Origin: a virus
DNA: 20,279 nt
Virus record (IMG/VR): IMGVR_UViG_3300047560_000742
Span: 1-20,279 of that record
Direction: 5' to 3' (one strand)
Each line of letters starts with the position of its first letter. Positions within the stretch are counted from its first letter, which is position 1. The notes beneath the pieces are model-generated. The model was not told the DNA's origin. It ran no database searches and worked only from the letters and a program-made list of their open reading frames with translations. Shown here in pieces: positions 11,281 through 13,215 of the stretch. The position numbers were made by a program, and so were the translations under genes.

Positions 11281-11566
11281 GTGACTCCTTAGTGATCTGA
11301 TACTGATGGAGGAATGCTCCAAAGGTATCTACAAACTCCTCATCATGGTTTAACTTACCCATTGTGAATAGAATGGCATGAACTAACTCATGGTAGAAGG
11401 TCTGCTCAGTGGTTTGCTTATTCATGTCCATACGTATGTGGATAACTTGTCTTTCGGGATCACACTTACCCATCTCTTCCATGTGAAATAAGTAGTTTAC
11501 GTGCCACTTAGATCCTGCTAGGTTGAAGGTGGTTGCCACATCTGGTTTGGTTCCCTTCTTAGCCAC
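11270..11566 (-). CDS. Putative zinc metallopeptidase-like protein (HExxH), GTG start
   Basis: A 98-residue protein with 'FYHELVHAILFTMGK' (HELVH at about 59-63), the HExxH zinc-binding motif of gluzincin/SprT-like peptidases, followed by 'DEEFVDTFGAFLHQ', where an acidic residue could provide the third ligand. The size is near the minimum for a peptidase domain. The start is uncertain: GTG at 11566 gives the full frame but overlaps the exonuclease by 49 nt; a GTG at 11539 ('VATTFNLAG') overlaps by 22 nt. Comparable short HExxH proteins occur in aquatic phage replication operons. The substrate is unknown. Confidence 0.75.
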   Translation of the reverse strand: MAKKGTKPDVATTFNLAGSKWHVNYLFHMEEMGKCDPERQVIHIRMDMNKQTTEQTFYHELVHAILFTMGKLNHDEEFVDTFGAFLHQYQITKESHEI

Positions 11567-12213
11567 AATAGTTTCCCATTCTCCAGTACCCTTTCAGAGT
11601 TTCCGTCATAAGCCTTGAGGCAAGCATCATATAGTTCCCTTTCAGTTGTACAATCTTTCAAGATCTTATCAGCCTTTACAGGGCCAATACCTCTGATTCC
11701 CTCTATGTTATCAACTCTGTCACCTGTCAATATCTGTTTGTAGAAACTGTACAAGCCTTCAAACTCAGTAACATAGTATTCTTCATCCTTTACAGGATTG
11801 TAGTGCCATCCCGGTAACTGATCAAGATCCTTATCTACGTGCACAATCCAGTAGTTACCTTCAGTGGATGCTATGCCTACAGCATCATCAGCCTCTTCAC
11901 CTTCTGACATCTTAGCACCGAGCTTTAGTAGATGGTTTCTGAGAGCATCATAATGCTTAGGCTTAGGAGCATCCTTACGGTTGCCCTTGTAAGGAACTGT
12001 GGTAGCTACTTCGAATCTAAAGTTAGTTTTACCTGTAATCCAAGCTCTGTAGTCATCACACTTCAAGCGCATATAGATTATGTCGGTAAACCACTCTGTG
12101 AGTCGATTTAGTGCCCACCGTTCCTCTTCATCCTCATTGGAGAAGCCAACTTTGTATACTAGCTAAAGGAAATCAGCATCTACAATAGCTTCTAGCGGTC
12201 GATCTAATTTCAT
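11518..12213 (-). CDS. 5'-3' exonuclease (FEN/T7 gp6-like), interrupted by in-frame TAG
   Basis: A FEN-family exonuclease reading 231 residues if codon 17 is decoded. The intended start is ATG 12213: AAGGAGGT lies 5 nt before it and it overlaps the HNH stop (ATGA). The first metal-binding motif 'AIVDADF' (D12, D14) is followed by TAG at 12165-12163 (codon 17), then the frame continues as 'LVYKVGFSNEDEEERW'. Further motifs: 'PYKGNR', 'EGEEADD' (106-110), 'VDKDLD' (126-131), 'TGDRVDNIEGIRGIGPVKA' (helix-hairpin-helix). A product starting at the internal ATG (12072, 184 residues) would lack the first acidic motif and the internal start has no clear ribosome site. Possible explanations are a recent mutation, suppression or readthrough, or a sequencing error. 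The gene also ends with TAG. T7 gp6 is about 300 residues. Confidence 0.85.
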
Positions 12214-12707
12214 TTTTTACCTCCTTCAAAGTGCCTAATACGATGACAATTTGCACAGAGAAGAACACACTTTGATAGTTCTTTCTCTACGAATTCAAAA
12301 TCTTTTCTACGAAGAATGTTTCCAAGATTGAATTCTTTTTCACTGGGATCTAAATGATGAAAATCATAAACAGAAGTAGGAAATACACCTTTACAATCAA
12401 CACATTCACCACCTAAATAGTCAATGGCTTTTTGTTTCTTTTCAAGGCCGTGTTTTGCTACTTTATTGTTTCTTTTATTTAACCATTCAGGACTTGTTTT
12501 GGCTTTGTTGTAGTATGCTCTTGCTTTTTCATTAGCGCATTTCTTACACACACCACCTTTAGATGAAAATGACTCAATAGATAATATGGTTGTACATTGA
12601 GAACAATATTTAAATCCTTGTGGAACTTCTTTTCCGTCCACTAGGAACACATACTCAAGTATCTTACCTTTACTATCTCTTTTAGTTACTTTCCGCTCTG
12701 TTTTCAT
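12210..12707 (-). CDS. HNH homing-type endonuclease with N-terminal zinc ribbon
   Basis: A 165-residue endonuclease. Residues 35-57 form a zinc ribbon (C35-x2-C38 ... C54-x2-C57); the HNH nuclease core follows, with C102/C105, 'YDFHHLDPSE' (H117, H118, D120), and 'CVLLCANCHRIRH' (C141, C144, H145, H149). Such free-standing HNH genes cut DNA of related phages lacking the gene and spread by repair. It interrupts the usual SSB-exonuclease order, is more A/T-rich than its neighbours, and has its own upstream control region (hairpin plus promoter). GGAGA lies 4 nt before the ATG. Its last codons (GAAGGAGGT, encoding EGG) provide the Shine-Dalgarno of the exonuclease, so the insertion is fitted neatly to the next gene. 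Confidence 0.92.
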   Translation of the reverse strand: MKTERKVTKRDSKGKILEYVFLVDGKEVPQGFKYCSQCTTILSIESFSSKGGVCKKCANEKARAYYNKAKTSPEWLNKRNNKVAKHGLEKKQKAIDYLGGECVDCKGVFPTSVYDFHHLDPSEKEFNLGNILRRKDFEFVEKELSKCVLLCANCHRIRHFEGGKK

Positions 12708-12760
12708 ATTATCTCCAATAAATATAAAATATATTAGTATTCTACACTATTGGAGATAAT
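12708..12760 (-). promoter_or_regulatory. 13-bp inverted repeat hiding the HNH ribosome binding site
   Basis: ATTATCTCCAATA (12708-12720) and TATTGGAGATAAT (12748-12760) are perfect reverse complements, separated by a 27-nt A/T-rich loop. In left-pointing mRNA that arrives from upstream genes, the arm nearest the HNH ATG contains the GGAGA ribosome site and would be paired, reducing translation. RNA folding energy was not computed. Confidence 0.75.
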
Positions 12761-12767
12761 TTGTCAA
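12739..12767 (-). promoter_or_regulatory. Sigma70-type promoter for the HNH gene
   Basis: On the minus strand TTGACA (12767-12762, perfect -35) is followed by a 17-nt spacer and TAGAAT (12744-12739, 5 of 6 of TATAAT). The predicted start, near 12732, lies inside the hairpin loop, so transcripts made here lack the upstream arm and would have a free ribosome site. It is the most convincing host-type promoter I found in the window. Confidence 0.75.
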
Positions 12768-12783
12768 GTTTTTTTAACTTATT

Positions 12784-13215
12784 TTAGAGGATGTCATCCG
12801 CTGTCTCTTCTTCAGCGACACCTTCAGGGATATAGAGCTTCAACTCAGTGATCACCAGCTTCTTGATAGACGGTGCAGCACCAAACTTAGCTGACATCTT
12901 GTGGCGGTATGAAGATACCAGTGCAAAGCACTTAGTACCATTACCAATATGAGATACGTCCACAGGATTGCCCTCTTCATCGACAGGCTCAAACAAGAAC
13001 TTAGACTTACCAACAATGTACTTACCCATTGTGTCTTTCTCTTTGATCTTGATGCCCAACTCTTCAAGCTTAGCTGCAGCAGCATCGCTCAGTTGTCCCA
13101 ATGTGCACTCATACTTATCGTTATCGTCATTGAACTTCTTGTTGTAGTCTTTCATCCAACCAGCCCAGAACAGTTCACCAGCAACTTTAACGGGTTTCAT
13201 GCTATCAATACTCAT
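12784..13215 (-). CDS. Single-stranded DNA-binding protein (gp2.5-like)
   Basis: A 143-residue protein in the position and with the properties of phage gp2.5-type ssDNA-binding proteins: an OB-fold-sized beta-rich body ('PVKVAGELFWAGWMKD', 'KYIVGKSKFLFEPVDEEG', 'VITELKLYIPEG') and an acidic tail 'AEEETADDIL', the kind of C-terminus that contacts DNA polymerase and helicase in T7. It coats single strands during replication and recombination. The ATG at 13215 is preferred over 13245 because AAAGGA lies 7 nt upstream and it leaves a clean 16-nt gap. It stands between the polymerase group and the HNH insertion. The fold assignment is from pattern and context. Confidence 0.8.
   Translation of the reverse strand: MSIDSMKPVKVAGELFWAGWMKDYNKKFNDDNDKYECTLGQLSDAAAAKLEELGIKIKEKDTMGKYIVGKSKFLFEPVDEEGNPVDVSHIGNGTKCFALVSSYRHKMSAKFGAAPSIKKLVITELKLYIPEGVAEEETADDIL

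Follow-up and report, generated by a model that had tools for sequence, protein, structure and literature searches.

How can a mobile gene that sits in a phage replication operon keep its expression under its own control? The question is raised by a free-standing HNH endonuclease gene on the minus strand of a 20,279-nucleotide viral DNA (IMG/VR record IMGVR_UViG_3300047560_000742, positions 1 to 20,279; hereafter, the window), whose start is preceded by promoter-like boxes lying within a hairpin. We read this region, with a probability of about 0.77, as the 5′ control unit of a free-standing mobile HNH cassette with a hairpin/internal-promoter switch, where promoter function and translational outcome are predicted from the sequence.

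Genomic context of the HNH gene

The HNH gene and its neighbours are arranged as follows:

12784..13215, minus strand: upstream gene, 143 aa; its end is the left edge of the insertion, as seen from empty sites
12210..12707, minus strand: HNH endonuclease gene, 165 aa (PHROG 2255, E 1.6e-27)
11518..12213, minus strand: 5′-3′ exonuclease gene (phrog_107, E 7e-55 for the C-terminal part)

The HNH domain was assigned from the PHROG match together with the invariant YDFHHLD and CxNCHRI motifs; no Pfam model matched the protein. The 143-aa upstream protein, for which neither a PHROG nor a Pfam match was obtained, is probably a T7 gp2.5-type ssDNA-binding protein, judged by its position. PHROG matches identified DNA polymerase and primase-helicase genes further upstream, and the HNH gene is followed by the exonuclease, an endonuclease I-type protein, a metallophosphoesterase and ribonucleotide reductase. 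Based on the DNA polymerase, the nearest cultured relatives are pelagiphages, e.g., HTVC103P and HTVC104P, and roseophages, at 38–45% identity. A nucleotide search of a phage collection with the locus gave no match, nor was an exonuclease interrupted in this way found in any cultured phage; one annotated exonuclease-HNH pair has the HNH gene downstream. A search for a T7-type RNA polymerase in six related records of 36–44 kb, which may be incomplete, gave no match, phage T7 being recovered as positive control; host sigma70 promoters are therefore expected.

Predicted promoter and hairpin at the HNH start

The control region upstream of the HNH gene comprises the following elements:

12762..12767, minus strand: −35 box TTGACA, from motif reading and a promoter scan, and conserved in the leaders
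12748..12760, minus strand: hairpin 5′ arm ATTATCTCCAATA, wholly inside the promoter spacer (12761-12745)
12739..12744, minus strand: −10 box TAGAAT, in the apical part of the hairpin
12722..12747, minus strand: upper helix and loop; 12747-12739 pairs with 12730-12722 in the computed fold
~12732, minus strand: predicted transcription start, from the position of the −10 box
12708..12720, minus strand: hairpin 3′ arm TATTGGAGATAAT, including the Shine-Dalgarno (SD) sequence GGAG (12716-12713)

The first-pass annotation had described TTGACA-17-TAGAAT on the minus strand and a perfect 13-bp inverted repeat with its upstream arm in the promoter spacer and its downstream arm containing GGAGA, and both are present as claimed. 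The two boxes, separated by 17 nt, match the consensus in 11 of 12 positions and gave the top score in the 10–15.5 kb region, using a sigma70 consensus that was assumed for scoring and may not be that of the host. The arms are complementary over all 13 bp, and 4 nt separate the end of GGAGA from the HNH ATG (12707). A weaker second helix of ~9 bp extends this stem through the −10 box. Scanning of the whole window revealed the repeat to be the sole one reaching ≥11 bp within 120 nt, and the RNA fold had an energy of −23.1 kcal/mol compared with −8.1 ± 2.4 kcal/mol for shuffled sequences (z = −6.2; 0/200 shuffles as good). No known RNA family was matched by the leader in an Rfam search. No intrinsic terminator was found, and the stem has no U run after it. 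A chance promoter was ruled out by the exceptional joint score for promoter and opening energy (see below); the hairpin-promoter arrangement is not due to chance.

In the proposed mechanism, read-through RNA from the upstream replication genes would contain both arms and fold (13 bp plus ~9 bp), which would bury the SD and prevent the HNH protein from being made. The sigma70-type promoter, with the first arm as its spacer, would start RNA in the hairpin loop at ~12732; such RNA would have no first arm, leaving the SD open for HNH translation. Carrying its own switch, the cassette would let HNH output follow its own promoter, insulated from the host operon. Promoter activity, the start site, the silence of the read-through RNA, the timing of HNH expression and homing by this HNH protein are what we infer, and given the host-type promoter, HNH expression could be early. 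It may be speculated that later read-through of the operon interferes with the promoter and yields locked RNA alone.

Computed accessibility of the Shine-Dalgarno sequence

Folding from both predicted 5′ ends, as suggested in the first-pass annotation, gave the contrast expected there, with the SD buried in the long RNA and free in the short one. In the window, opening of the SD cost 12–15 kcal/mol for 5′ ends from 13007 to 12757, 5.7 kcal/mol with the 5′ end at 12753, 0.7 kcal/mol with the 5′ end at 12751 and ~2.4 kcal/mol from the predicted start at 12732; overall, the computed cost drops from 13–15 to 1–2 kcal/mol as soon as the 5′ end lies past the first arm. In the window, the AUG of the short RNA is itself weakly paired with the 5′ leader. 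Opening of the SD through the AUG in 18 HNH leaders (16 distinct) required 5.0–22.5 kcal/mol in the long RNA versus 1.4–5.6 kcal/mol in RNA from the predicted start, and the short RNA was cheaper to open in all 18; the contrast was weak for L005 (5.0 vs 2.4 kcal/mol). For T4 I-TevI as the proven case, the same calculation gave a drop from 11–12 to ~1 kcal/mol. Of the features of the T4-type switch, sequestration of the SD by a stable hairpin in the read-through RNA is thus present in the computed folds, and a promoter RNA without the first arm is present at the sequence level, with the start predicted and the 18 leaders alike.

Conservation of the layout in related leaders

An IMG/VR search returned 47 relatives of the HNH protein, and further ones were obtained via other queries. 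The layout is common to 18 HNH leaders from five sequence groups, although the arms differ. Group A consists of the window and L002-L004, group B of L005, L006, L010, L012, L064, L065, L067 and L193, group C of L015-L018, L020, L028 and L056, group C2 of L052 and L053, and group D of L021. The 5′ and 3′ arms are ATTATCTCCAATA / TATTGGAGATAAT in group A, ACAGCTCCAATA / TATTGGAGTTGT in L010, GACTTTTCCTA / TAGGAGAAGTT in group C and AGCATATCCTTATTC / GAATAGGAGATATGCT in group D, those of groups C and D being quite unlike those of A and B, with identical layout. The −35 box is TTGACA or TTGACT, and once TCGACT; the 17-nt box spacing is exact in 18/18 leaders, with the −10 box in the same place, and the predicted start falls between the arms, 21–28 nt before the ATG, in every leader.

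The constancy of these boxes bears on an alternative in which the SD is freed through RNase III cleavage of the read-through RNA within its ~22-bp stem, the promoter-like boxes being of minor importance. T7-like phages are known to use RNase III sites between genes, and the stems total ~20–23 bp in all groups. However, the −35 box does not vary in groups A and B despite its position beyond the stem, and every group retains the −10 box and its 17-nt spacing, whereas processing needs neither; we consider RNase III processing unlikely.

In the ungapped alignment of groups A and B, 4 of 13 arm pairs are changed on both sides. The covariation score of 0.255 was reached by 3/500 shuffles, a value that is not a probability, as this control uses related sequences; slid versions scored at most 0.193. 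G-U pairs are frequent among the arm pairs, which fits RNA pairing and not the symmetry of a DNA palindrome. For L006 and L012, the leader is ~67% alike, less than most surrounding genes, implying that the layout was kept by selection and not for lack of time to diverge. Loss of complementarity between the arms of related leaders had been named beforehand as the observation that would speak against the switch; instead, the arms stay complementary while their sequences change, with compensating and G-U changes.

These pairing data also bear on the possibility that a repressor, conceivably the HNH protein, binds the inverted repeat as a DNA operator. One arm does lie inside the promoter, and autorepression of its own late promoter is established for I-TevI (PMC2988022). 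However, the frequent G-U pairs and one-sided, pairing-preserving changes break DNA symmetry, and the second arm is always placed over the SD. Comparison of the leader with the presumed exonuclease target, which may not be the true one, revealed no similarity above that of shuffles. Taken together, we regard an operator as very improbable, clearly more so than RNase III processing.

The HNH gene of L007-L009 starts instead at what used to be the exonuclease start codon (ATGACGACATCCTCTGAG...); promoter and hairpin are absent there, either through loss or because they were never present. Some lineages can thus do without the switch.

Specificity for endonuclease genes

To score the layout, a sigma70 matrix was combined with the difference in opening energy between the long and the short RNA, applying cut-offs of ≥5 for the promoter and ≥8 for ddG. 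In the fetched loci, 20 HNH leaders passed, as opposed to 1/496 control ORF starts, and this single ORF itself encodes an HNH-type protein. When 313 gene starts of the window and six related records were ranked (L052 with its 10.5-kb locus alone, the other related records being long), ranks 1-7 were taken by the seven HNH genes and ranks 8-10 by one HNH_3/AP2 gene and two Endonuclease_7 genes elsewhere in the genomes; as the score was designed after the HNH leaders had been seen, the HNH ranks are partly circular, and those of the other families are not. The same arrangement was found at a further Endonuclease_7 gene (L015:802). Other endonuclease-like genes in these records are without the layout, e.g., the Endonuclease_7 gene L180:17119. 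In these phages, the layout thus recurs at free-standing endonuclease genes of at least three protein families and is not a phage-wide trait.

In a different phage, two genes of record L034, one DNA ligase-like (L034:490) and one with no assigned function (L034:6411), have TTGACG-17-TATAAT inside an SD-hiding hairpin. The layout is therefore not strictly confined to endonucleases and may serve other genes elsewhere.

Insertion of the cassette

In ~60 HNH-less relatives, the upstream gene overlaps the exonuclease (GCGGATGACATCCTCTAAGG...; exonuclease MTSSKKDRPVEAIVDADFLVYK), leaving no room for promoter or hairpin, from which it follows that both came with the HNH gene. In the window, GATGACATCCTCTAA directly precedes the cassette, whose end provides a new exonuclease SD and start, GGAGGTAAAAAATGAAATTA; the exonuclease is interrupted at codon 4-5, and the cassette supplies its new start at 12213. 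Empty sites in close relatives give the presence/absence pattern of a homing endonuclease.

The cassette splits the exonuclease gene and provides it with a new start; the promoter could therefore help that gene, now separated from its operon, with the hairpin providing low, constant HNH translation. However, no terminator-like site was found between the genes, and the upstream operon can still read through; the arm covers the HNH SD and not that of the exonuclease; and the layout is found ahead of further endonuclease genes at different sites. We rate this explanation lowest of those considered, marginally below the operator. The insulating switch for the HNH gene is the reading retained in the comparison below.

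Comparison with known systems

In T4 I-TevI, a hairpin in read-through RNA hides the SD, and RNA from an internal promoter, which has no first arm, is translated (PMC2988022). The first-pass annotation had likened the window to this logic; the likeness is correct according to that source and agrees with the energy drop computed for I-TevI. The window leader shares the SD-hiding logic with I-TevI of the td intron as well as with I-TevII and I-TevIII. I-TevI is, however, an intron-encoded GIY-YIG enzyme with a T4 late promoter, whereas the HNH gene of the window is free-standing and has a host sigma70-type promoter, the phages concerned being unrelated to T4 and their records showing no T7-type polymerase. 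Closer in this respect are T4 segB and mobE of Aeromonas phage Aeh1, free-standing genes that have an internal promoter and a hairpin masking the SD (PMC2988022, PMC3014915); they have T4-type late promoters and are single cases, the layout not having been shown across several endonuclease families. Middle and late endonuclease-specific promoters, and no early ones, are listed for T4 (PMC2988022). Since the window has TTGACA-17-TAGAAT of the host sigma70 type in place of a T4 late (TATAAATA) or middle promoter, its switch would work alike but is not counted as a member of the T4 class.

While the logic is already known, what is new here is the host-type promoter, its occurrence with several families of endonuclease in phages not of the T4 type, and the demonstration by comparative analysis. 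A T4-type translational lock thus appears to recur in unrelated phages that depend on the host polymerase, at HNH, HNH_3/AP2 and endonuclease VII-type genes. The mobile gene would bring its own promoter together with a lock against the operon in which it lands, and this combination can be recognised from sequence alone.

In-frame stop in the downstream exonuclease

The exonuclease downstream of the cassette contains an in-frame stop:

12160..12168, minus strand: CTT TAG CTA, Leu-STOP-Leu in the active-site motif DADFL*LVYK; the HNH-less relatives are 6 nt shorter here

The stop is present in 18/18 non-redundant exonucleases behind this HNH class (...VDADFL*LVYK...) and in 0/62 HNH-less relatives, most of them 89–96% identical to the window protein. 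In 19 loci it reads CTT TAG CTN; the distant L035 has CTG TGA CTA. The following codon is CTN in 20/20 loci; it is TTA in 53/62 HNH-less relatives. After the stop, the window exonuclease is 98% identical to HNH-less L306 and L309, which have no stop, and 50–68% identical to other stop-sharing carriers outside group A. We conclude that the stop travels with the HNH cassette.

Group B provides a trace of this transfer. A tract of ~190 bp from about HNH nt 345 to CTTTAGCT shows 98–100% identity with flanks mostly at 62–93%, and its edge is sharp and lies exactly at the stop insertion (L005, L006, L010, L012, L064, L067). This co-conversion tract, which adjoins the presumed cut site, looks like the outcome of homing with a break at CTTTAGCT, presumably by the HNH protein.

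Uninterrupted exonucleases follow the HNH genes in groups C and D, as well as those of more distant types. The group C carriers L014-L017, L020 and L028 have no stop and show altered codons at the motif (DADLITYR, DADIITYR, DGDILVYR), perhaps another way to escape cleavage.

The dN/dS of the exonuclease after the stop is 0.06–0.13, implying that the protein is made and needed, whatever its mode of production. The stop is flanked by codons that one tRNA can read, and a hop would give DADFLVY, the motif of the HNH-less relatives; readthrough would yield a motif with two additional residues. A ribosome hop from CUU to CUN across the stop is a candidate that we rate slightly short of an even chance, and readthrough is somewhat less probable, with the remainder going to something else. 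General reassignment of TAG was rejected, as large conserved genes are without internal TAG. The terminal TAG of the window exonuclease was set aside as proof that TAG terminates; it carries little weight, as the tail length varies among relatives.

The closest precedent is T4 gene 60 with mobA, where a homing endonuclease resides in a replication gene beside a coding insert; this insert has UAG after the take-off codon and matching flanking codons, and is thought to protect from cleavage (PMC5009743). Both systems thus combine an endonuclease with a UAG insert between matching codons, although the gene 60 insert is 50 nt long and out of frame, whereas that of the window is 6 nt, in frame (CUU UAG CUN) and a candidate for bypass. 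The 2016 review reports no known natural in-frame stop hopping (PMC5009743); the exonuclease stop is a compact candidate for such a hop, linked to endonuclease immunity. It is conceivable, though we hold it only tentatively and as less probable than not, that the whole forms a two-ended mobile unit, with an insulating sigma70 switch, possibly giving an early pulse in reversal of the T4 timing, at the 5′ end and an obligatory, self-protecting 6-nt stop insert that is hopped at the 3′ end.

A search for a suppressor tRNA found none; the only tRNA was tRNA-Leu(UAA), in two records. Its genes (L178:6656-6740 and L179:15260-15344) lie ~0.5–0.8 kb upstream of the HNH start, and their carriers are two of the three long group A/B records.
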